Origin: Hydrogenobacter hydrogenophilus
GTDB lineage: Bacteria > Aquificota > Aquificia > Aquificales > Aquificaceae
Reading direction: 5' to 3'
DNA: 64,000 nucleotides
Assembly (NCBI RefSeq): GCF_900215655.1
Contig: NZ_OBEN01000008.1
Location: 1-64,000, forward strand
The notes under the pieces are model-generated. The model made no database searches. It worked only from the letters and a program-made list of their open reading frames with translations, and was not told where the DNA came from. Every line of letters starts with the position of its first letter. The first letter of the stretch is position 1. This document shows, one piece after another, positions 3,771 to 64,000 of the stretch. Position numbers and translations under genes: made by a program.

Positions 3771-4295
3771 ATGGACGAGATAACTGTTGGAAAGTATACG
3801 GTAAGAACAGACAGGTATTACACTAAGGACCACGAATGGGCTCTTATCAAAGGGAACAAAGCGTGGATAGGTATAACAGACTATGCTCAGAAAGAACTTG
3901 GGGACATAGTTTATGTTGATCTACCTTCTGTGGGGCAAAGCTTTGAAAGCGCAGACACCATTGCCAACATAGAATCCGTTAAAAACGTGGCACCCGTATA
4001 TGCACCTTTGTCTGGAACGGTTGTGGAAGTTAACGAACAGCTCTTAGATGAGCCACACCTTATAAACGAATCACCATACGACGATGGATGGATAGTGGTG
4101 CTTGAACTTTCTGACCCCATGGAGGTAGAAGACCTTATGCCTGCACAGGATTATGCTGAATTGCTTGTTGAGATAGTAAAAGAGGAAAAGGGAGAAGATG
4201 TATCCCTTGAGATACCAGAAGAGGAGATCACCCCAACCATGGAAGAATCCCTTGAAGCACTTCCCGAAGAGGAACACCCTTATGAGGAAAGGTAA
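3771..4295 (+). CDS. gcvH: Glycine cleavage system H protein (lipoyl carrier) with acidic tail
   Basis: Carries the aminomethyl group between P, T and L proteins on a lipoyl-lysine. The lipoylation motif ANIESVKNVAPV places the lipoyl lysine at residue 71; the hammerhead fold ends near 130. The protein is 174 residues, against about 125-130 for the common form, because of a Glu-rich tail (about 136-174) with four EEE-type clusters. The start ATG at 3771 follows ACAGGAGGTTTGAC. The stop overlaps the gcvPA start (TAATG), so translation is coupled. Aquificales also have lipoate-binding paralogues tied to the sHdr sulfur pathway; direct linkage to gcvPA argues for true GcvH here. Confidence 0.92.
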   Translation: MDEITVGKYTVRTDRYYTKDHEWALIKGNKAWIGITDYAQKELGDIVYVDLPSVGQSFESADTIANIESVKNVAPVYAPLSGTVVEVNEQLLDEPHLINESPYDDGWIVVLELSDPMEVEDLMPAQDYAELLVEIVKEEKGEDVSLEIPEEEITPTMEESLEALPEEEHPYEER

Positions 4296-5614
4296 TGTAT
4301 ATACCCCACTCAAAGGATGATGTGCAGAAAGCCTTAGAACAACTTGGGCTTTCATCTTTAGATGACCTCTTTTCCCACATAGACCTTCATCTTTTAGAAC
4401 CTCCCAGCTTAGGACCCCCTATGACTGAGGAGGATGTAAGGAGGTATTTTAAAGAAATATCAAAAAGAAACAGGGAACTTGTGTGTTTTGCGGGGTTTGG
4501 AGCTTACGACAGGATCATACCATCTGCCATATGGCAGATACTTAGCAGGGGAGAGTTTTTAACCGCATACACACCCTATCAGGCAGAAGCGTCCCAAGGT
4601 ACACTTCAGGCTATTTTTGAATATCAAACCCTAATATGCGAGCTTACGGGTATGGATGTGGCTAATGCAAGTATGTACGATGGTGCCTCAGCCTTGGCAT
4701 CTGCCATCCTTATGGCAAGAGCTATAAAGAGTAAAGGAAGTAGGGTCCTACTTTCAGAAGGTATAAACCCTCTCTACAGGGAAGTTGTAAAGACTTACCT
4801 TTTGGGCTATCAGGATGAGATTAACATAGTACCTCTTCAAGAGGGAGGATATACGGACATAGATGTGCTGGAGGACCTTCTTAAAAAGGGTGAAGTTCAT
4901 GCGGTAGCGGTGCAGTATCCTAACTTCTTGGGTTTTATAGAACCTTTGGAAGAAATAGGAAAAATAGTAAAGGGCTATCAGGTACCCTTTGTGGTAGTTG
5001 CGGATCCTATAGCTCTTTCTGTACTTAGACCTCCGGGAGATTATGGAGCGGACATAGTGGTTGGTGAAGGACAACAGATGGGACTGCCTCTAAACTTTGG
5101 TGGTCCATATGTGGGTTTTTTCGCGGTAAAGACAGAGCACTTAAGGAAAATGCCGGGAAGACTGGTAGGACTTGCAGAAGATGTGGATGGAAAGAGGGCT
5201 TTTACCCTTGTGCTTCAGACAAGGGAACAGCACATAAGAAGGGAGAGAGCCACATCAAACATATGCACAAACCAGAACCTTATGGCTCTTGCTAACCTCA
5301 TATATATGGTCCTTTTGGGAAAAGAAGGTATGAGAGAAGTTGCAAGGCAAAGCATTTCAAAGGCTATGTACCTAAAGGGCAAGCTTGTCTCCTTGGGATT
5401 TGAGGAATTATACAAAGGAAAACATCTGTGGGAGTTTCCCCTAAGGAAAGAAAAGGTTTTGGATCTTCACAAAAGACTTCTTGAAAAAGGCTATATGTTT
5501 GGAGTACCTTTGGAGAAGTTTGGCTACAGAGACACTCTTCTTTTGGCAATTACAGAGAAAAGAACAAAAAGAGAGATGGACGAGCTTGTTCATCTCGTTA
5601 AGGAAGAGTTATAA
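4295..5614 (+). CDS. gcvPA: Glycine dehydrogenase (decarboxylating) subunit 1
   Basis: The 439-residue alpha subunit of split P protein, which decarboxylates glycine and passes the aminomethyl group to GcvH. Family patterns: FAGFGAYDRIIPSAI, TAYTPYQAEASQGTLQAIFE, MANASMYDGASALA-like segment, GEGQQMGLPLNFGGP and TREQHIRRERATSNICTNQ. The PLP lysine is on the partner subunit GcvPB, which is not in this window. The ATG overlaps the gcvH stop. A TATAAT at 5610-5615 overlaps the stop codon and probably drives the following tRNA. Confidence 0.95.
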   Translation: MYIPHSKDDVQKALEQLGLSSLDDLFSHIDLHLLEPPSLGPPMTEEDVRRYFKEISKRNRELVCFAGFGAYDRIIPSAIWQILSRGEFLTAYTPYQAEASQGTLQAIFEYQTLICELTGMDVANASMYDGASALASAILMARAIKSKGSRVLLSEGINPLYREVVKTYLLGYQDEINIVPLQEGGYTDIDVLEDLLKKGEVHAVAVQYPNFLGFIEPLEEIGKIVKGYQVPFVVVADPIALSVLRPPGDYGADIVVGEGQQMGLPLNFGGPYVGFFAVKTEHLRKMPGRLVGLAEDVDGKRAFTLVLQTREQHIRRERATSNICTNQNLMALANLIYMVLLGKEGMREVARQSISKAMYLKGKLVSLGFEELYKGKHLWEFPLRKEKVLDLHKRLLEKGYMFGVPLEKFGYRDTLLLAITEKRTKREMDELVHLVKEEL

Positions 5615-5697: not shown

Positions 5698-7416
5698 TTA
5701 ATCTACACTTATCTTCTTTTGCATACGGTACATGTTTATGATTTCTTCTACTGTATTAGCATCTTCTGGTTTTTTGTCCGTTCTTATAAAACCCACCGCT
5801 CTTGGAAACCTTAGAGCAAAGCCGGGTTCTTCCATAGTCCTTCCTGCAGTGTGCAATGGAGACCTTGTTATTTCATCAGCAGTCAAAGTTATCACATATT
5901 TGGGCTCTACCCAAACATCTGCATCAAGCAAAGAGTCAACCCTCGCATGTCTGTGTGGCAGTTTTATCTGGTCCAGCATGTTTTTTAGTCTTATCCACTC
6001 GTCCTCTGTAAAACCTGAACCCACTTTACTTATGGTTTTGAAGGTATCTGTCTTAGGGTCATATACCGCAGTTAGCAACGCACCTATGCCGAGCTTTGCC
6101 CTTGCCCCTTTCCCATAAAAGTAGCCCACTATCACCACATCTATGGTATCTGCCAAAGAGCCTCTGTAGCTTCGCTTTAGCTTTATCCAATTGAAGTTCC
6201 TTGAACCCGCAGTGTAAGGTGCATCAAGCCTTTTTGCTATTATTCCTTCTAAGCCTCTTGCCACAACATCTTCAAAGAACTTCTCTATCTCTTTGGCACT
6301 GTCCGTTATAAACATCTCAGACTTAAGAAGGACAGAATTTTCGGGTAGTATCTCTTCTAACTTTTTTCTGCGCTCTATGAAAGGCTTCTGTGTGTAGTCT
6401 TCACCCTCTATGTAAAGCAGGTCAAAAACAAATAGCTTTAGGGGATACTCCTTGGCATACTCATAAACGCCGTACTTCCTTTTTCTCTGTATAGTGATCT
6501 GAAAAGGATAGAACTCACCGGTCTCTTCGTTATAAGTTATGGCTTCTCCTTCTATTATCACCTCATCCTGCTTTATGTTTTCCCATATAGCCTGCTTGAG
6601 GTCTGGGAACATTTCCGTCATTCTTTCTAAGTTCCTTGAGTATATCTCTATGTCTTTACCTTTTTTATGCACCTGAAGTCTAAAACCATCGTATTTAGCT
6701 TCCACCGCACACCTACCCATACGCTTTATAATTTCCTCTGCGCTTGCAACTCTTTCTGCTAAAGCCATCCTGATGGGATAACCTACCTGCACCTTGAAGT
6801 TTCTAACACCTTCTATGCCTTTTTGCACAAGCACCTTTGCAACAAGCCCAAGGTCAGAGCAGAGGTTATAAGCTCTCTCTATGTCTCCTTTGTAGTCCTT
6901 ACTTCCAGCAAGACTCGTCAAAGCCTCTATGATAGTAGCATCTCCTACACCCAGCCTTAGCCTTCCCATAATGATCCTCGCAACATACTTGGCTTCAAGG
7001 TTTGAAAGGCCCTTGAGAAGGCTCATTATTCTAAGAACCTTATCTTTTGTACCTCTGGTTGTTGCTATGTCCAAAAGTTCGTCGTAAACCTGTTTAACGC
7101 TTAGCCCTTTACCTTCCCAATTTACAAGTTCAAAAGCAGTCTCTCCCATATCCCCTTTTGATTTGTAGAGGCTCTCCACTTGAGATGCCCTCACACCGCA
7201 CGCCTTAGACAGAGCTTCTATCATCAACTTTTCTGAAACTCCCATCTCTATACCTTTGAAGGGTGGGAGTATCTCACCAAGCGTAAGATAAACCATCTTG
7301 TCTATGTCTTCGTTGGTGGCTTTGCTGAACATCTGCATCAGTATGCTGGACATCTCTAACCTGCTTGTGGTACTCTCAAGCATCTGAAAGTATTGAGAAA
7401 GCTCTAAGAACTTCAT
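5698..7416 (-). CDS. lig: ATP-dependent DNA ligase (archaeal type)
   Basis: Seals nicks using ATP. The 572-residue protein has an N-terminal DNA-binding domain (about 1-215), adenylation domain with motif I EAKYDGFRL (nucleophilic Lys about 241), YSRNLERMTEMFPD, EGEAI, EGIIAKRLDAPYTAGSR (motif IV) and WIKLKRSY (motif V), and an OB domain with FALRFPR. This archaeal-like ligase is known in Aquificae next to their NAD-dependent LigA, probably by ancient transfer. I chose the ATG at 7416; an in-frame TTG lies just before. There is no Shine-Dalgarno, and a TATAAT ends 8 nt upstream. It runs convergent to the tRNA and divergent from obgE. Confidence 0.93.
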   Translation of the reverse strand: MKFLELSQYFQMLESTTSRLEMSSILMQMFSKATNEDIDKMVYLTLGEILPPFKGIEMGVSEKLMIEALSKACGVRASQVESLYKSKGDMGETAFELVNWEGKGLSVKQVYDELLDIATTRGTKDKVLRIMSLLKGLSNLEAKYVARIIMGRLRLGVGDATIIEALTSLAGSKDYKGDIERAYNLCSDLGLVAKVLVQKGIEGVRNFKVQVGYPIRMALAERVASAEEIIKRMGRCAVEAKYDGFRLQVHKKGKDIEIYSRNLERMTEMFPDLKQAIWENIKQDEVIIEGEAITYNEETGEFYPFQITIQRKRKYGVYEYAKEYPLKLFVFDLLYIEGEDYTQKPFIERRKKLEEILPENSVLLKSEMFITDSAKEIEKFFEDVVARGLEGIIAKRLDAPYTAGSRNFNWIKLKRSYRGSLADTIDVVIVGYFYGKGARAKLGIGALLTAVYDPKTDTFKTISKVGSGFTEDEWIRLKNMLDQIKLPHRHARVDSLLDADVWVEPKYVITLTADEITRSPLHTAGRTMEEPGFALRFPRAVGFIRTDKKPEDANTVEEIINMYRMQKKISVD

Positions 7417-7424
7417 CAAAAAAC

Positions 7425-7432
7425 ATTATAAT
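7425..7432. promoter_or_regulatory. Palindromic -10 element between lig and obgE
   Basis: ATTATAAT reads TATAAT on both strands (7427-7432 plus, 7430-7425 minus). It lies 8 nt before the lig ATG and 14 nt before the obgE ATG. Confidence 0.5.
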
Positions 7433-7446
7433 TAAATTCTCGTAGT

Positions 7447-8469
7447 ATGTTTGTGGATAAGGTCAAGATATATGTCAAGGCGGGAGATGGGGGTGATGGT
7501 GCGGTAGCTTTTTTGAGGGAAAAATACAAGCCTTATGGAGGACCAGCAGGAGGTGATGGCGGAAAAGGCGGTGATGTGATCTTAATAGCTACCTCAAAGA
7601 AACTAACACTGTATGACTTTAAATACAAAAGGCACTTTAGAGCTCCCAATGGGGAAAGGGGAAGAGGGAAAAACCAGCACGGAAAAGATGCTGAGGATCT
7701 TATACTGGAAGTTCCCATAGGTACTGTGGTGATGGATGCCCAAACGGGCCAAGTCATCTGTGATCTTACAGAGGAAGGACAAAGGTGCATAGTTGCAAAA
7801 GGAGGTAAAGGTGGCAGAGGCAACGCGCGTTTTGCCACACCCACAAACCAAGCACCCAAATACGCAGAAAAAGGTCAAAAGGGTGAAGAAAGATGGTTGT
7901 TGCTGGAACTCAAGCTCATAGCGGATGTAGGTATAATAGGACTTCCCAATGCGGGAAAGTCCACACTCATATCCAAGTTAACCAAAGCAAGACCCAAGAT
8001 AGCAGACTACCCATTCACCACCCTATCTCCCGTACTGGGAGTTATGGAGCTTGAAGATGCAAGCAGAATAGTGTTGGCAGATATACCAGGTCTTATAGAA
8101 GGTGCTTCTCAAGGAAAAGGATTGGGACTTGAGTTTCTAAGGCACATAGAAAGAACAAAGCTTTTGCTACACCTTGTAGATGTATCAGACCAAAGACAAA
8201 TGGAACCTTTGGAAGCCTTTAAGATAGTCAATTCAGAAATGGAAAAGTACAATCCTGAACTTTTAAAGAAAAAACAGATAGTAGTTGGCACCAAGATAGA
8301 CATTCTTTCTGATAGAGAAATACTCAATGACCTCAAAAGAGAGTTTGAAAAGATGGGTTATATGTTTATCCCTGTATCCTCCATCACAGGTGAAGGTATG
8401 GACACCTTAAGAAAAGTTATAATAGAACAAATCAAAGGAGGGAAAGATGAACCCTTGGGAAATGCTTGA
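7447..8469 (+). CDS. obgE: GTPase Obg/CgtA
   Basis: Ribosome-associated GTPase required for late 50S assembly. The 340-residue protein has the glycine-rich Obg domain (1-158; GDGGDGAVAF, GGPAGGDGGKGGDV), then a G domain with P-loop GLPNAGKST (165-173), switch II DIPGLIEGA, and TKID for guanine specificity. It ends soon after the G domain, so the C-terminal OCT domain of longer homologues is absent. The last 23 nt overlap the start of the isomerase gene, indicating translational coupling. Confidence 0.96.
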   Translation: MFVDKVKIYVKAGDGGDGAVAFLREKYKPYGGPAGGDGGKGGDVILIATSKKLTLYDFKYKRHFRAPNGERGRGKNQHGKDAEDLILEVPIGTVVMDAQTGQVICDLTEEGQRCIVAKGGKGGRGNARFATPTNQAPKYAEKGQKGEERWLLLELKLIADVGIIGLPNAGKSTLISKLTKARPKIADYPFTTLSPVLGVMELEDASRIVLADIPGLIEGASQGKGLGLEFLRHIERTKLLLHLVDVSDQRQMEPLEAFKIVNSEMEKYNPELLKKKQIVVGTKIDILSDREILNDLKREFEKMGYMFIPVSSITGEGMDTLRKVIIEQIKGGKDEPLGNA

Positions 8470-51723: not shown

Positions 51724-51838
51724 GCTTTTATTATAATACAAGAAGTAATTGCTCACTTTTGTAAAAAACGCTCTCTAAAACCTCGTATCTATGATGCGGG
51801 TTTGCAGCGAGTCTGCTTAAGTAGTTTAAAATAGAGGT

Positions 51839-52487: not shown

Positions 52488-52976
52488 ATGATAGGGATAG
52501 ACATAGGGTTTGGTTTTACGAAGGTAGCAAAAGATAGGGCAGAAGTAGGGAAGTTTCCCACTTGGATTGCTTATTATGACAGTAGTATGGAGAGTGTAGA
52601 ACCTATTGAGTTTGAGGGCAGCAGGTCTTATGTGGTAGGGGAGTATGCTAGTTATAGCAAGCAGAGGATAGATCTTGCGGATGTTAATTTGCTTATTACC
52701 TTCATGCCTTTGATAGTGGAGTATGCCAAGAGAGGGTATAGTTTTGATGGTGAGGTGGTAAGTGGATTATCTCCCAAGCATTACGCCTTATACAAGGAGA
52801 ATGCCAAGTTTAGGGAGAGGCTTTCCTTTTTGAAGAGGGTGGTTCTTGTTATAGACAGATGGACTTATGCTTGTTCTGAGGCTAAGAGAAGGTTTAAGAC
52901 CGGAGCTAAACCTAAAGGAGTTTTTGCATGCGCTTCTTGGGGCACTTATGCAAAGACAGGGAATAGTTTTGAGTGA
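52488..52976 (+). pseudogene. Truncated ParM-like actin (copy of the gene at 62557)
   Basis: The first about 120 residues are plainly homologous to the intact gene at 62557: MIGIDIGFGFTKVAKD, VGKFPTWIAYY, MESVEP, LSPKHYALYKE and RLSFLK. After position about 52850 the similarity ends and the frame continues for about 40 unrelated residues. The second phosphate loop and the adenosine loop are therefore missing and it cannot be a working actin. Promoter TATAAT and AAGGAAGGAAGTAAGGC precede the ATG. The iteron array that precedes the intact copy is absent. Confidence 0.75.
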
Positions 52977-55378: not shown

Positions 55379-55395
55379 AAACTATTTATCTTAAA

Positions 55396-55702
55396 GTCAG
55401 AGGCTCTGACAAAGCTCCATAAATACGAGCGTAGGCTAAGGTTTGAGCCTTTCCTTTGGCTCATGCAAAAGGAAAAGGGAGTGGATATCCCAGAAGAGAA
55501 CTTTAGGTTTGCACTTGCAGTAGCTACCTATGTTTTAGAAAATGCTTTTCACTTCACTGAAGAAGACAAAGAGTTTTACGAGTTTTTAAGGCAGGTGGTA
55601 GAAAAGCATGGCAGAGAAGACTATTGGCAATGGATAGAAAAATCTCCACTTCCTTTTCCTGATTACCTTAAGGCAAACTACGATTTTAGGAATTGCTCGT
55701 GA
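55396..55702 (+). pseudogene. 5'-truncated copy of the nucleotidyltransferase partner gene
   Basis: From about 55396 the sequence matches the intact gene at 58279 at roughly 90 percent DNA identity (for example NFRFALAVATYVLENAFHFT and REDYWQWIEKSPLP), but the first about 10 codons and the start are gone, and the cognate nucleotidyltransferase is absent upstream. Translation could only begin at the internal ATG 55463. Confidence 0.65.
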
Positions 55703-57779: not shown

Positions 57780-58343
57780 ATGAATAGGAAGGAAGTAGAA
57801 GCTAAACTAAAAGCGATAACAGAAGAGATCAACGAAGAACTCAGAAAACGCAACTTGGATCTGAAAATCTTTCTTATATTAGTAGGTAGTGCTTCTTTGA
57901 TAGTCAAGTATCACTTAAAGAGAGGAACGAAGGATATAGATGTAATACTAAGACCTTATTTAGGAGGAATAGGGGATTTGCTTACAAGAAGAGGCTTTCA
58001 AGTAGTATCTGAAGCATTAGTTAATCTTCATCCCGATTACGAAGATAGATTAGAGTTAGTCTTAGCAGAAGGACAAGTTTTTGTTTTGACTTTATCTCCT
58101 TATGATTTAGCAATTTCTAAGATAAGTAGAGGGTTTGATAAAGATATAAATGATGTTCTTGAGTCAGATTTGATAAAACAGATAGACTTTAACAAGTTAA
58201 AGGAACTTTACTTTGAGGCAATGTCCTACTGGATAGGAAACGAAAAAAGATATAGATTTTCATGGGAGGTGTTTGAAGATGCTTACCTCAGAAAGTTTGG
58301 ACAAACTTTTGATGAAGGCAGAGGCTTTGACAAATCTCCATGA
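57780..58343 (+). CDS. Nucleotidyltransferase-fold protein (DUF6036-like)
   Basis: A 187-residue protein with LILVGSASLIVKYHLK then RGTKDIDVILRP (G-S and D-x-D acidic pair) and LSPYDLAISKISRGFDKDIND. Overlaps the downstream partner gene by 65 nt, so the two are coupled. Third nucleotidyltransferase of the island. Confidence 0.75.
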   Translation: MNRKEVEAKLKAITEEINEELRKRNLDLKIFLILVGSASLIVKYHLKRGTKDIDVILRPYLGGIGDLLTRRGFQVVSEALVNLHPDYEDRLELVLAEGQVFVLTLSPYDLAISKISRGFDKDINDVLESDLIKQIDFNKLKELYFEAMSYWIGNEKRYRFSWEVFEDAYLRKFGQTFDEGRGFDKSP

Positions 58344-58656
58344 ACACGAGCGTAAGCTAAGGTTTGAACCTTTCCTTTGGCTCATGCAAAAGGAAAAAGG
58401 AATAGAGGTTCCAGAAGAGAACTTTAGGTTTGCACTTGCGGTAGCTACATATGTTTTGGAAAATGCTTTTCACTTCACTGAAGAGGACATGGAGTTTTAC
58501 GAATTTTTAAGGCATGTGGTAGAAAAACACGGCAGAGAAGACTACTGGCAATGGATAGAAAAATCTCCACTTCCCTTGCCAGATTACCTTAAGGCAAACT
58601 ACGATTTTAGAGATGAAAACAGTTATGTCCTTAACCTTAACGCCTCTAATCCTTAA
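58279..58656 (+). CDS. Partner protein of the nucleotidyltransferase at 57780
   Basis: A 125-residue, acidic, helical protein (LHEHERKLRFEPFLWLMQK, YVLENAFHFTEEDMEFYEF, GREDYWQWIEKSPLPLPDYL). Family unknown. ATG 58279 has GGAGG 9 nt upstream inside the preceding gene. A 5'-truncated duplicate lies at 55396. Likely antitoxin or regulator of its coupled enzyme. Confidence 0.65.
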   Translation: MLTSESLDKLLMKAEALTNLHEHERKLRFEPFLWLMQKEKGIEVPEENFRFALAVATYVLENAFHFTEEDMEFYEFLRHVVEKHGREDYWQWIEKSPLPLPDYLKANYDFRDENSYVLNLNASNP

Positions 58657-59580: not shown

Positions 59581-59677
59581 TTTTCCACTTGACACACACA
59601 TGAGTTTTGTGTATATTATTAACATAGCCATATGGCTGTAGAACTTGACAACTGAATATGTTTTGCGATCCTTTGGG
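59581..59677 (+). promoter_or_regulatory. Probable CRISPR leader of array 1
   Basis: A 97-nt A/T-rich stretch between the insertion-sequence remnant and the first repeat, with no open frame. Repeat degeneration at the opposite end of the array places the leader here. It contains an ACATAGCCATATGGCTG-type symmetric segment and a TTGACA at about 59645. Confidence 0.55.
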
Positions 59678-60309
59678 ATTTATTAAGTACCTATAAGGAG
59701 TTGAAACTAAACCACTGAAAAGTTGGGATCAGTCATTCTACTAAATTTATTAAGTACCTATAAGGAGTTGAAACAACCAGAGGTCTCCTTTGATGTTGTA
59801 CTTTGTAGCAATTTATTAAGTACCTATAAGGAGTTGAAACGAGGAAGAGTATGACAAGTTTTTAAGGTCCGCAAGGATTTATTAAGTACCTATAAGGAGT
59901 TGAAACTGAAGAAGGAAGGAAAAGATGGAAGTATCTTGGTCCTATTTATTAAGTACCTATAAGGAGTTGAAACACCGTTGCATTTGTCCCTTGTCTAAGC
60001 TTCTCATAATGTTTATTAAGTACTTATAAGGAGTTGAAACCACATATAGAAAATTCCTTGAAGCGTTTGAAAAAAGCCGTTTATTAAGTACCTATAAGGA
60101 GTTGAAACGCTTTCTCGTTCCAAAAAGTGAGATACCCCCTCTTTTTGTTTATTAAGTACCTATAAGGAGTTGAAACCCTCATCTTTCTGTAGTCCTGCCC
60201 TGAATTCTCTCAGTTTATTAAGTGCCTATAAGGAGTTGAAACACCCACTCCTTCATGCCTACCCAGTAGAGAGGACTGAGTTTATTAAGTACCTATAAGG
60301 AGTTGAAAT
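59678..60309 (+). CRISPR. CRISPR array 1, 10 repeats and 9 spacers
   Basis: Ten 30-nt repeats beginning GTTTATTAAG (or ATTTATTAAG) and ending GGAGTTGAAAC, at 59678, 59745, 59811, 59877, 59944, 60011, 60079, 60147, 60213 and 60280; spacers are 36-38 nt. The first five repeats start with A, the later ones with G. Repeats 6 and 9 each have one internal change, and the last ends GAAAT. The GAAAC end is typical of type I-B/III repeats of thermophiles. No cas genes are in the window. Confidence 0.98.
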
Positions 60310-60528: not shown

Positions 60529-60849
60529 TTAAAACTCAAAAAGTCTAAGAACCTCTTCCAGTTTTCTGGCTACCTCTTCCTTTAAGTGTTCTATCTTAGT
60601 AAGCTCTTCAAGAATAGGGGATACATCATGTAAGGCTTTTGTGTTTATTCGTTCCACTCTTCCTAAGCACTTCCACTTGGTTTTTCCTTGTTCCCTCCAC
60701 CATGTATAGACATAGCTATAGCCTTTTATATGCTTTATCGTGTAGCCTTTACGATGGAGTATTCGGTTTAGCTTTCTTTCTCTTTTCTCTAACTCCTTCA
60801 GAGCGGAGTTCAACAAAGAAATAAGGTAAGCTAAATAATCCGTGGACAT
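60529..60849 (-). CDS. Hypothetical coiled-coil protein
   Basis: A 106-residue protein: helical N-terminus (LNSALKELEKRERKLNRIL), a central beta segment (GYSYVYTWWREQGKTKWKCLG) of the kind seen in DUF6788-like DNA-associated proteins, and a C-terminal helix. Divergent from the recombinase gene, with palindromes in the shared intergenic region, so it may regulate it; this is inference. Confidence 0.55.
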   Translation of the reverse strand: MSTDYLAYLISLLNSALKELEKRERKLNRILHRKGYTIKHIKGYSYVYTWWREQGKTKWKCLGRVERINTKALHDVSPILEELTKIEHLKEEVARKLEEVLRLFEF

Positions 60850-60910: not shown

Positions 60911-60952
60911 GTTAGTTAACTAACCTCTTCCAATTTGGAAACCCCAAACTGG
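60911..60952. repeat. Palindromes upstream of the recombinase gene
   Basis: A perfect 14-bp palindrome GTTAGTTAACTAAC (60911-60924) is followed by an imperfect inverted repeat CCAATTTGG (60930-60938) / CCAAACTGG (60944-60952). They sit just before the TATAAT (60964-60969) of the recombinase gene, an operator position. The segment GTTAACTAAC plus TCTT downstream also occurs at 60493. Confidence 0.5.
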
Positions 60953-60975
60953 AAAAATTTTTGTATAATGAGACT

Positions 60976-61857
60976 ATGAGTTATCAACCGTTCTTAGATA
61001 GCTATCTTCAGAGTCTTGTCAGGAACGAAAAAACCATAAGGACTAAAAAGTTTTTAATGAAACATCTTGAAACCTTTGGCTGGCGGAGTATATGGGATTT
61101 TCAGACAGTAAAAGAGTTCTACGAATACTTGGAGAGCAAAGGACTAAAACCTTCTACAATCAAAGAAACCATAAGGGAAGTAAAGGCTTTTCTTAGGTTC
61201 CTAAAGGATAGCGGAGTGCAGGTGATGTTAGATGAGAGGGCGTTTAAAAAGCTCTGGGACTATAAAAAGCTAAAGGCTAAAAAGAGAAAAGAGATCTTTT
61301 CTGACCAAGAGCTTGACAGGTTTTTTGCTTACTGCGATAAAAAGCCTCCCATATACAAAGTCTTTTTTCTGCTTTTGCTTCATTCTGGGCTAAGAGTAAA
61401 TGAAGCTTTGTCGCTGTTGCCAGAAGACCTAAAAGTCAAAAAGCTTGGAGACAAAGAGGTTCTATTTCTAAGTGTGAGAGAGGGTAAGTTTTCAAAGCAG
61501 AGGGAGGTACCTATGGTAATGCTTTCTGAAGATGAGAAGAATTTCTTCAAAAGGTTCTTTTTAGGCAGGAAAGGTAAGCCTCTTTGGAGCTATTTGCTAA
61601 AATATCCCAAAAGCGTAAAAGAGAAAATCTTAAACTACTGGGCGGTGGTAAAGTTCTGTCAGATGGCAGAAAAAGAACTTGGTTTTAGCGTGTATCCTCA
61701 CAAGTTTAGATATACGTGGATTTCAAAGATGCTTGCCATGGGCTTTTCTCCACACGCAGTAGCTCAATGGGCAGGGCATGAAAAAGTTCAGACCACCTTA
61801 GAAACCTATGCGGTAGTCCTAACGGAACAAGAAATTCTGAAGTTATGGAACCTATAG
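60976..61857 (+). CDS. Tyrosine recombinase (XerC/XerD-like)
   Basis: A 293-residue integrase with N-terminal SAM-like core-binding domain (1-100) and catalytic domain. Catalytic residues: Arg in LHSGLRVNEAL, Lys in REGKFSKQREVP, H-x-x-R in YPHKFRYTW, His in WAGHEKVQTT, and the nucleophilic Tyr in TLETYAVV. Length fits Xer recombinases, which resolve dimers. TATAAT ends 6 nt before the ATG, with no Shine-Dalgarno. The last 13 nt overlap the ScpA-like gene. Alternatively it is an element integrase. Confidence 0.88.
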   Translation: MSYQPFLDSYLQSLVRNEKTIRTKKFLMKHLETFGWRSIWDFQTVKEFYEYLESKGLKPSTIKETIREVKAFLRFLKDSGVQVMLDERAFKKLWDYKKLKAKKRKEIFSDQELDRFFAYCDKKPPIYKVFFLLLLHSGLRVNEALSLLPEDLKVKKLGDKEVLFLSVREGKFSKQREVPMVMLSEDEKNFFKRFFLGRKGKPLWSYLLKYPKSVKEKILNYWAVVKFCQMAEKELGFSVYPHKFRYTWISKMLAMGFSPHAVAQWAGHEKVQTTLETYAVVLTEQEILKLWNL

Positions 61858-62363
61858 AAGTTCTTCTTAAGAAGGTAGAGCGTGGAGAAATAGACCCTTA
61901 TGATGTGGATCTAAAGGCTTTAATAGAGGACTTCAGGCAAAGGCTTGGAGAGGTATCTCTTCCATATGTGGGCCTGTTTTTGGAGGCGGTAGTTAGATTA
62001 CTTAAGCTTGAACTTGAATACTTCTTTCCAAGCGTAGAGATCAAAAGTCGTGAAAGGAAAATCACGCTCAAAGAGGTAAAAGAAGCTTTAGAAGACCTAC
62101 ACTTAGAAGATCTCTTACCTGTCTATCAAGTTTCAGTAGGAAGACCTAAAGGAAGCATAGGAACGCCAAGAAGCATAACTACAGAGAAGGAAAGCTTAGA
62201 TCCCCCATTACACAAAACCTTTTCACCAAAAGAGTACATAAGAAGACTTAAAGAGTACGGCTTAGAAGATTGGCAGGATGTGGAGCGCTTTTTACTTAGC
62301 CTAACAGATAGAGTAGAAAGGGTGAGGTTCCTTATGGCATGGTTAATCTACCAACAAGATTGA
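61845..62363 (+). CDS. ScpA-like kleisin (segregation and condensation protein A)
   Basis: A 172-residue protein. The N-terminus, PIEVLLKKVERGEIDPYDVDLKA-like (residues 3-25), matches ScpA (L-L-x-L-x-x-x-E-I-D-x-x-D-I), and VGLFLEAVVRLLKLELEYF corresponds to its second helical block; the C-terminal FSPKEYIRRLKEYGLEDW is unlike core ScpA. ScpA is the kleisin of SMC condensin; xerD-scpA pairs occur in other bacteria. Coupled to the recombinase gene. Shorter than usual ScpA (220-260), so a specialised or divergent form. No smc or scpB is in the window. Confidence 0.62.
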   Translation: MEPIEVLLKKVERGEIDPYDVDLKALIEDFRQRLGEVSLPYVGLFLEAVVRLLKLELEYFFPSVEIKSRERKITLKEVKEALEDLHLEDLLPVYQVSVGRPKGSIGTPRSITTEKESLDPPLHKTFSPKEYIRRLKEYGLEDWQDVERFLLSLTDRVERVRFLMAWLIYQQD

Positions 62364-62532
62364 CTAATTGGCTTTTTGACTAATTGACTGTTTGACTAAA
62401 AGACTTTTTGACCACTTATAAACTACAAGCAAAGCGTTGTGACGCTTAAACTTGTTTAGAATAGGGACTTTTTGACTATTTAGCATATTGACCATTTGAC
62501 TTTTTAGCTTGCAGACATTTTGACTTTTTGCT
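62357..62532 (+). repeat. Centromere-like array of 8-bp-phased TGAC iterons
   Basis: TGAC (or AGAC/GGAC) recurs at 62361, 62377, 62385, 62393, 62401, 62409, 62465, 62473, 62489, 62497, 62513 and 62521: every interval is a multiple of 8. The unit is 8 bp, approximately T-N-T-T-T-G-A-C. Two clusters (62357-62412 and 62461-62532) are separated by 48 bp, keeping phase. A short inverted repeat AAGCG/CGCTT lies in the gap. The array begins at the stop of the ScpA-like gene and runs up to the TATAAT of the ParM-like gene. parC sites of ParM/ParR systems have this position. Confidence 0.75.
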
Positions 62533-62556
62533 ATAATAGGTTTACAGGAGGTAATT

Positions 62557-63423
62557 ATGATAGGTATAGATGTGGGGTTTGGTTGGACTAAGGTAGCAAA
62601 GGACGGAGTGGAAGTAGGTAAGTTTCCTACTTGGATCGCTTACTATGAGAGCGGTATGGAAAGCGTAGAGCCCGTAGAATTTGAAGGGAGAGCCTACGTG
62701 GTAGGGGAGGATGCACGCTATAGTAGGAGAAGGATAGAACTGGCAGATGCAGAACTTCTTTTTAGGTTCTTTCCCGTCATAGTAGAATATGCAAAGCGCA
62801 GGTTTCAGCTCAACGATGATGTAGTAAGCGGACTTGCTCCTAAGCATTATGCTCTATACAAGGAAAGTCCCAAGCTTAAAGACCGACTATCCTTCTTAAA
62901 AGCGGTCTTAGTGCAAGGTGTAGGTGTCCTTCTTGACATAGCGGAGGATGTGAGAGATGGAGAAGTGGTATTTGTTATAGATATTGGCTTCAACACGATA
63001 GACTATGTACTTGCCAAAAGAGAAGGGACTACTTGGAGACGCTATGCTATAGGTTCTATAGAAGGATTGGGGGTTCTTCGTGCTATTGAGATTTTCAAAG
63101 AGAAACTACCAAGCTCTCTTTCTATCCTTCAGGGATTTTCTCAATCAAGACTAATAGAGGCTTTTGAAAAAGGTTATGCTACCATAGAAAGCGAAAGAGT
63201 AGAGTTGAAACCTTACATAGACCTTGCTTGTGAGGAGTATGTGGACATTCTTTTAAGTAGGCTCAAATCAGAACTTTCAGGTAGAGTAGAGGAGAGAGAT
63301 AAGCTTGTATTAGCAGGTGGTGGAGCTAACCTGATAGAAGCCAGTCTGTTTGGAAAAGATGCCCTTATTCCTAATAAACCTGAATACTCCAATGCAAGAG
63401 GCTATTCAAGGTTTGAACCATGA
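62557..63423 (+). CDS. ParM-like bacterial actin
   Basis: A 288-residue actin-fold ATPase: phosphate 1 IGIDVGFGWTKVA, phosphate 2 FVIDIGFNTIDYVLA, and adenosine loop LVLAGGGANLI. ParM-type filaments push plasmid copies apart. ATG follows ACAGGAGGTAATT, and TATAAT is at about 62531-62537. It overlaps the downstream gene by 4 nt. A truncated copy lies at 52488. The homology is to the ParM/Alp/archaeal-actin group; the subtype is not resolved. Confidence 0.85.
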   Translation: MIGIDVGFGWTKVAKDGVEVGKFPTWIAYYESGMESVEPVEFEGRAYVVGEDARYSRRRIELADAELLFRFFPVIVEYAKRRFQLNDDVVSGLAPKHYALYKESPKLKDRLSFLKAVLVQGVGVLLDIAEDVRDGEVVFVIDIGFNTIDYVLAKREGTTWRRYAIGSIEGLGVLRAIEIFKEKLPSSLSILQGFSQSRLIEAFEKGYATIESERVELKPYIDLACEEYVDILLSRLKSELSGRVEERDKLVLAGGGANLIEASLFGKDALIPNKPEYSNARGYSRFEP

Positions 63424-63749
63424 AGGTACTTCTCAGGCACTTAATAGATCTACAAGAGCCTGCTCTTGAAAGGTTTTCAGTCTTGACTCCTCGCATGAAA
63501 GGAAAACTATTAGAGTTCTTACTGCAGGACTTTTTAGGTAGCATCAGTGAAGAAGAGTGGAAGGAACTATATAAATGTGTCATAGCAAGAGACTACAAAG
63601 GTTTTACAGAGAAGGTAGAGGAAATCTGGGAAAAGAGGGCAGTTAAAAGAGAATACCAAGATAAAAAGCGGATTAACCAAGAAGAGAGAAGTAATCAAAG
63701 TAGCGGTGGATTAAGGAGCTTGGAAAGTATTAAGGAGTTTTTGGAGTAA
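63420..63749 (+). CDS. Small ParR-like partner of the ParM-like actin
   Basis: A 109-residue protein coupled to the ParM gene by ATGA. A strand-helix-helix segment (RFSVLTPRMKGKLLEFLLQD, about 18-37) could be a ribbon-helix-helix DNA-binding fold, and the C-terminal tail is charged and Gln/Ser-rich (KRINQEERSNQSSGG), as in ParR, whose tail binds ParM. Assignment rests on position and size more than on sequence. Confidence 0.55.
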   Translation: MKVLLRHLIDLQEPALERFSVLTPRMKGKLLEFLLQDFLGSISEEEWKELYKCVIARDYKGFTEKVEEIWEKRAVKREYQDKKRINQEERSNQSSGGLRSLESIKEFLE

Positions 63750-63784: not shown

Positions 63785-64000
63785 GGTTCAACTCCTTATA
63801 GGTACTTAATAAACTACAACCATTTTCTCCATTCCTGAGCAGGAAGAACGAGTTTCAACTCCTTATAGGTACTTAATAAACTGGAAAGGTGTCCTCAACG
63901 GTTTCTCTTGTGGGAAGCAGTTTCAACTCCTTATAGGTACTTAATAAACCATACACGCTCAATGTCTTTCACAGTGGTGTGGTAGCGTTTCAACTCCTTA
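63785..64000 (-). CRISPR. CRISPR array 2, inverted, continues past the window
   Basis: Same 30-nt repeat as array 1 but on the minus strand: repeats at 63785-63814 (one mismatch near its 3' end as read on the minus strand), 63852-63881, 63920-63949, and a partial one from 63987. Spacers are 37, 38 and 37 nt. The degenerate repeat is at the left, so the leader lies to the right outside the window. Its trailer end faces that of array 1. Confidence 0.97.

Follow-up and report, generated by a model that had tools for sequence, protein, structure and literature searches.

The window considered here comprises 64,000 nucleotides of DNA from the heat-loving bacterium Hydrogenobacter hydrogenophilus, positions 1-64000 of the 78.5-kb contig C8 in a nearly complete, 1.6-Mb genome. 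Between 60976 and 63749 it carries five co-oriented parts on the plus strand: a gene for a Xer-type tyrosine recombinase, a gene for a relative of the kleisin ScpA, an iteron region, a gene for a ParM-like actin, and a small coupled gene. Comparison with 136 Aquificota genomes in a phylum-wide search leads us to read this segment as probably the maintenance module of a low-copy plasmid lineage of the Aquificales, now lying in accessory DNA, that combines a type II ParMRC partition system with a plasmid Xer recombinase (Xer-P) and a plasmid-type ScpA relative (ScpA-P) that probably recruits or modulates the structural maintenance of chromosomes (SMC) complex of the host. The ParMRC part is ordinary; the new part of the plasmid maintenance set is the Xer-kleisin pair. 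An earlier sequence-only reading, which named all five parts and left open whether they form a chromosomal segregation module or the maintenance set of an integrated plasmid, is partly supported: its part names are correct, and the second of its two readings is the one that the data favor. The conserved units are the Xer-ScpA pair and, separately, a parC-parM-parR unit on the same replicon. Related genomes contain these genes together, as that reading expected, but their contiguous four-gene order has so far been seen only in this genome.

ScpA-P, a Plasmid-Type Relative of ScpA

ScpA clamps the SMC motors that fold chromosomes; its N-terminal domain binds the SMC neck and its C-terminal winged helix caps the SMC head. 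ScpA-P of the window (61845-62363, plus strand) is encoded by a gene that overlaps the recombinase gene by 13 nt. Direct scans of the protein against Pfam, NCBIfam, and PHROG gave no significant match, and the curated ScpA family PF02616 matched 2 of 12 family members (best 0.006), the window protein not among them. The relationship appears at the level of profiles: a profile of 12 ScpA-P relatives matches ScpA in the PDB (6ivh, E 6.6e-9), and hhalign aligns ScpA-P with chromosomal ScpA over 180 columns (98.7%, E 2e-16). The ScpA-P profile also recovers chromosomal ScpA in about 95 Aquificota genomes (3e-14 to 5e-6). Its scores are bimodal, with plasmid-type proteins, fragments included, mostly at 65-262 bits and chromosomal ScpA at 26-53 bits, and a maximum-likelihood tree splits the ScpA-P clade from chromosomal ScpA with 100/100 support.

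Conservation within ScpA-P is strongest in the N-terminal ScpA domain. A G-x-I-D-P-x-D-V-D-L motif and an LLKLK region align to chromosomal ScpA, and the middle of the protein has a GRPKG-like motif in Aquificaceae members. Structure prediction of ScpA-P (4 rows) was weak (pLDDT 61), and Foldseek returned no matches for this weak model. Compared with the ScpA of the Smc-ScpAB condensin (PF02616), ScpA-P shows homology over most of its length and keeps the SMC-facing N-terminal domain, but it belongs to a separate plasmid clade, lacks the C-terminal wing, and is coupled to a recombinase gene, and the window's protein has no curated Pfam match. The sequence-only reading had called the protein ScpA-like and proposed a profile comparison with ScpA; homology holds by way of the profile of relatives, whereas a direct Pfam match was not obtained and the protein is not an ortholog of chromosomal ScpA.

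Xer-P, the Coupled Recombinase

Plasmid Xer systems serve multimer resolution or integration. The recombinase gene of the cassette (60976-61857, plus strand) encodes a protein that matches Phage_integrase PF00589 (2e-16) and has the full catalytic set expected from the sequence-only reading, with R140, K171, K174, H242, R245, H268, and Y278 invariant in 11 homologs. XerA/XerC-like profiles match it far under their equivalog cut-offs, and it is not an ortholog of XerC or XerD: its scores for the two, 56 and 47 bits, compare with cut-offs of 335 and 330. Like XerC/XerD and plasmid-encoded tyrosine recombinases, Xer-P has a complete catalytic set and Xer-like profile matches; unlike XerC/XerD, it falls far short of equivalog status and is only 25% identical to the chromosomal Xer of its own genome. 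A Xer-P profile separates full-length Xer-P (>370 bits) from chromosomal Xer (<=125 bits). Exceptions are G065/G067, whose divergent pair scores 150-160 bits, and G110, with one protein at 221 bits.

Just upstream of xer lies an inverted repeat, TTCCAATTTGG-AAACC-CCAAACTGGAA (60928-60954, no strand assigned), with 11-bp arms, 1 mismatch, and a 5-bp spacer. The contig of 78.5 kb has 9 such repeats, this one included, and calling it a candidate recombination core site or operator is speculative. No conserved dif-like site was found upstream of xer orthologs, and because the repeat does not recur at the same position there, its role as a core site is unproven. Divergent from xer, on the minus strand at 60529-60849, is an open reading frame (ORF) of 106 aa with no informative family match, which may belong to the module.

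Distribution of the Xer-P and ScpA-P Pair

ScpA-P was found in 20 of the 136 genomes, all from two families (f1 and f2) of the Aquificales. Two of its carriers are bona fide plasmids. On the Aquifex aeolicus plasmid ece1 (NC_001880), ScpA-P lies at 7395-7979, already annotated by NCBI as "ScpA family protein," together with Xer-P and a ParM reduced to a 50-aa fragment. The second carrier, the 53.7-kb Persephonella marina plasmid (NC_012439), has ScpA-P at 3787-4362, annotated as "hypothetical protein," along with Xer-P, an intact ParM with its coupled ParR-like gene, and iterons of 8 bp. Both plasmids share an orthologous recombinase and ScpA-type protein with the window, but their genes are dispersed where those of the window form one contiguous run. 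Among other plasmids, only a weak Natronorubrum match was seen. ScpA-P was not found in IMG/VR viral contigs or phage records, and a genome-wide DNA-pattern scan of GTDB 220 returned only four Aquificaceae contigs.

At six intact loci of both families, Xer-P is encoded directly upstream of ScpA-P, on the same strand and with an overlap of 4-13 nt: the window, G065, two loci of G067 (a third is cut by a contig end), G082, and G104. G060 has a truncated copy of this arrangement, and in G004 the two genes abut. Xer-P lies 0.3-3.6 kb upstream of scpA-P in G064, ece1, G095, P. marina, G053, G021, G013, and G002, and 36 kb away, on the chromosome, in G036. The distances among Xer-P and among ScpA-P proteins correlate (Mantel r = 0.82, 0/5000). 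In G021 (C168:4911-5456, L073), a ScpA-P frame has three in-frame stops, all of them TAG, with an intact xer 2.8 kb away.

This tight coupling and matched divergence speak for an alternative in which ScpA-P has no SMC role and acts as an accessory or directionality factor of the co-expressed Xer, its SMC-binding fold reflecting ancestry only. The loss of the C-terminal wing would fit such a factor, as would the plasmid gene content, with no SMC or ScpB gene annotated on ece1 or the Persephonella plasmid. However, ScpA-P is best conserved in its N-terminal ScpA domain, for which a protein serving only a recombinase would have no use, and some Xer-P proteins occur without ScpA-P. We consider this alternative unlikely.

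The Probable ParMRC Unit

In ParMRC systems, ParR has three tasks: binding parC, capping filaments of ParM, and repressing the promoter. The actin-like ATPase gene of the cassette (62557-63423, plus strand) was recognized as ParM-like from its sequence, and profiles bear this out (MreB-like_C 7e-12; ALP_N 1.4e-11; phrog_691 "partition protein" 1e-26), with a weak match to the ParM of PDB 6izr (0.016). Upstream are two arrays of 8-bp iterons on the plus strand, the putative parC: seven in-phase units of consensus TTGACTNN at 62360-62415 and eight units in the same phase at 62464-62527, separated by a 48-bp spacer (6 x 8). The 8-bp periodicity claimed in the sequence-only reading is real: the autocorrelation at period 8 gives z = 4.7, and the phase score was reached by none of 2000 dinucleotide shuffles and at no other place in the 78.5-kb contig. 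Within the spacer, a stem-loop (AAGCGT-TGTG-ACGCTT, 62432-62447, plus strand) is a possible terminator of xer-scpA-P, although the terminator-like pattern behind it is near chance (2 found against 1.4 expected). Just after the iterons, a TATAAT read directly at 62532-62537 (plus strand) is a candidate -10 element of a parMR promoter, for which no good -35 match was found.

Period-8 arrays also precede parM orthologs on the P. marina plasmid (z 6.0) and in G070 (z 8.2), with a weaker array in G048. Period-9 arrays occur in G002 and G123 and, weaker, in G125, and a period-11 array occurs in G082; no array was found upstream of parM in G068, G053, or one G004 copy.

The small partner gene (63420-63749, plus strand) overlaps parM by 4 nt and encodes 109 aa. 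Its assignment as ParR-like draws on its position: a small gene adjoins parM in most orthologous loci, and the relatives' products have an N-terminal strand-helix-helix resembling a ribbon-helix-helix (RHH) fold and often end in an aromatic or acidic motif. The comparison with ParR families that the sequence-only reading had proposed produced no such match, as searches of the 109-aa protein in Pfam, NCBIfam, PHROG, and the PDB returned nothing useful. RHH_1 weakly matched one member of the ParR-like set (0.13), and a single-sequence AlphaFold2 model of the 109-aa protein is all-helical at weak confidence (pLDDT 69). Beyond the window on contig C8, at 76094-76369 (L056 16095-16370, minus strand), a 91-aa ORF has an RHH-like N-terminus and a C-terminal NNWW like that of the ParR set; no ParM was detected beside it.

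The unit resembles the type II ParMRC of plasmid R1 (ParM/ParR/parC) in having an actin-like ATPase, a small overlapping gene, and two iteron arrays with a candidate promoter upstream. It differs in that its iterons are 8 bp long (9 or 11 bp in relatives) and unrelated in sequence, that its actin is nearest to ALP/MreB-like proteins and phrog_691, and that it is linked to a Xer-kleisin pair.

ParM homologs are present in 19 of the 136 genomes, including 12 of the 20 with ScpA-P against 7 of the 116 others (Fisher 8e-8; 2e-9 within the order only, both in a test that ignores phylogeny). ParM, ScpA-P, and Xer-P share one contig in G053 and G095, and ScpA-P and ParM share a contig in G070, G082, and G067.

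Genomic Context of the Cassette

DNA synteny with four congeners ends at 51,760, just past a TetR-like gene (named by eye). The following 27 kb contain a TnpB-like remnant (a broken ORF), a truncated parM, AbiEii/nucleotidyltransferase genes, the cassette, and cas genes. The context past the synteny break is accessory, and we therefore read the cassette as plasmid-derived DNA in a chromosomal contig, although a free replicon is a further possibility. The truncated parM (52488-52976, plus strand), 71% identical to the intact one over its first 119 aa, is left over from another, related plasmid; a few AAAAATTG units spaced at 8 bp stand upstream of it. Very similar gene segments at 55390-55700 and 58290-58650, beside AbiEii/nucleotidyltransferase-type genes, suggest a duplication inside the accessory region.

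The cassette is flanked by two CRISPR arrays that share repeat and leader, lie on opposite strands, and converge on it: one with 10 repeats on the left (59679-60309, plus strand, within the stretch 59590-60309) and one with 7 repeats on the right (63785-64000, minus strand), the latter running past the window end to 64217 with its leader beyond. Type I-B-like cas genes, named by eye from translations, follow at 64717-71154. Among the matches listed for the 15 spacers of these arrays against the fetched plasmid loci, only self-matches appeared.

The contig's left part, syntenic with congeners up to 51.76 kb, could be taken to favor the other possibility raised by the sequence-only reading, a chromosomal segregation module of the lineage, and chromosome-encoded ParMs (cParM) have been described from Desulfitobacterium and Clostridium (PMC12270681). 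The cassette shares with cParM a ParM/ParR unit on a chromosomal contig, but here the unit is accessory and apparently plasmid-derived, with plasmid orthologs in the same phylum. ParM and ScpA-P were both missing from the four congeners searched, they are sporadic elsewhere, and both occur on bona fide plasmids, while the host already has its own ScpA and Xer. A chromosomal module is therefore strongly disfavored.

The maintenance set of an integrated plasmid is well supported, its parts recurring on Aquificales plasmids. Whether the set still functions is a separate matter. The truncated parM and broken TnpB-like ORF nearby might indicate a decaying remnant without present function, as might the reduction of the ece1 parM to a fragment and the lack of a visible replication (Rep) gene. 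As the sequence-only reading stated, no such gene was seen; this holds for the ORFs that were compared or profiled, with no search aimed at Rep families. Yet none of the four genes is disrupted, nor are the parC arrays, and catalytic residues and overlaps are kept, so that a functionless remnant seems rather improbable.

Proposed Function and Weighing of Alternatives

We hypothesize that the module acts in three layers. In the first, a type II ParMRC, the ParR-like protein would bind both 8-bp iteron arrays and feed growing ParM filaments, which would push plasmid copies apart, while ParR on array 2 would repress the parMR promoter. In the second, the plasmid Xer would resolve multimers, or integrate and excise the element. 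In the third, ScpA-P, presumably co-expressed with Xer, would use its conserved N-terminal domain to bind the neck of the host SMC and would recruit or modulate this SMC on the plasmid; sister copies might in this way be drawn to the Xer site, or copies compacted for partition. These molecular activities, SMC binding above all, we infer from homology, gene order, and co-occurrence.

Several points weigh against this reading, the first being that SMC binding by ScpA-P is itself presumed. The C-terminal wing, an invariant Q188 region after the last helix of chromosomal ScpA, is missing in the ScpA-P clade, whose proteins stop after the last helix or end in an unrelated tail; ScpA-P may therefore not close the SMC ring. 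Xer-P occurs without adjoining ScpA-P in G080, G074, and second copies in G070 (C121) and G065 (C139), so the pairing is frequent, not obligatory. The co-occurrence test is blind to phylogeny, as stated above, and fragmented genomes weaken absence calls. The congeners' downstream neighbors at the 51.76-kb breakpoint all differ; the site is therefore variable, and an insertion with defined ends is not demonstrable. To these is added the Rep gene not seen among the ORFs covered.

The host has a full SMC (a 1182-aa frame) and its own ScpA. ScpB (PF04079) is absent from its genome and nearly all Aquificales (four sub-threshold matches), though chromosomal ScpA is widespread there, and is present in 22/22 genomes of family f5. 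ScpB in Aquificales has either been lost or diverged past the reach of the profile. ScpA-P occurs only in Aquificales, where ScpB is mostly undetectable, and not in f5; its confinement to a group without detectable ScpB is suggestive, but ScpB is nearly absent from the Aquificales as a whole, and its absence is therefore uninformative for ScpA-P. A more specific proposal is that plasmids of the Aquificales have a dedicated kleisin, which loads the SMC of the host onto plasmid DNA and couples SMC action to Xer recombination and ParM partition, giving plasmids of a group without detectable ScpB their own adaptor for the host condensin. We advance it tentatively, as possible but somewhat doubtful.

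The same domain content could also mark a protein that acts as a decoy or an inhibitor. By imitating a kleisin, it would tie up host SMC, or an SMC complex used in defense, and so keep it from acting against the plasmid. ScpA-P keeps the SMC-facing domain and has lost the head-side wing, as in a dominant-negative kleisin, and elsewhere SMC-type systems are known to attack plasmids (PMC10586767). However, JetD of Wadjet was found in 0/136 Aquificota genomes (no separate search covered MksB-type or other defensive SMC systems), which makes a Wadjet-decoy role unlikely in this phylum, and poisoning the sole SMC would cost the host. A decoy is accordingly quite improbable.

Plasmids carry partition systems and resolvases, and SMC complexes act both as chromosome folders and as anti-plasmid weapons. 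Already known are ParMRC, chromosomal ParMs (PMC12270681), and plasmid recombinases. A search of the open literature, with most subscription papers outside its reach, found no paper on plasmid-borne ScpA or kleisins or on their pairing with Xer. That plasmids of the group repeatedly carry this kit suggests that they bring along a component of their own for the machinery with which the host folds its chromosome. A ScpA relative that is encoded by a plasmid lineage and stays in step with a recombinase in two bacterial families would mean that plasmids recruit or manipulate the host condensin, and ScpA-P offers a natural test of kleisin function without a detectable ScpB and without a C-terminal wing.

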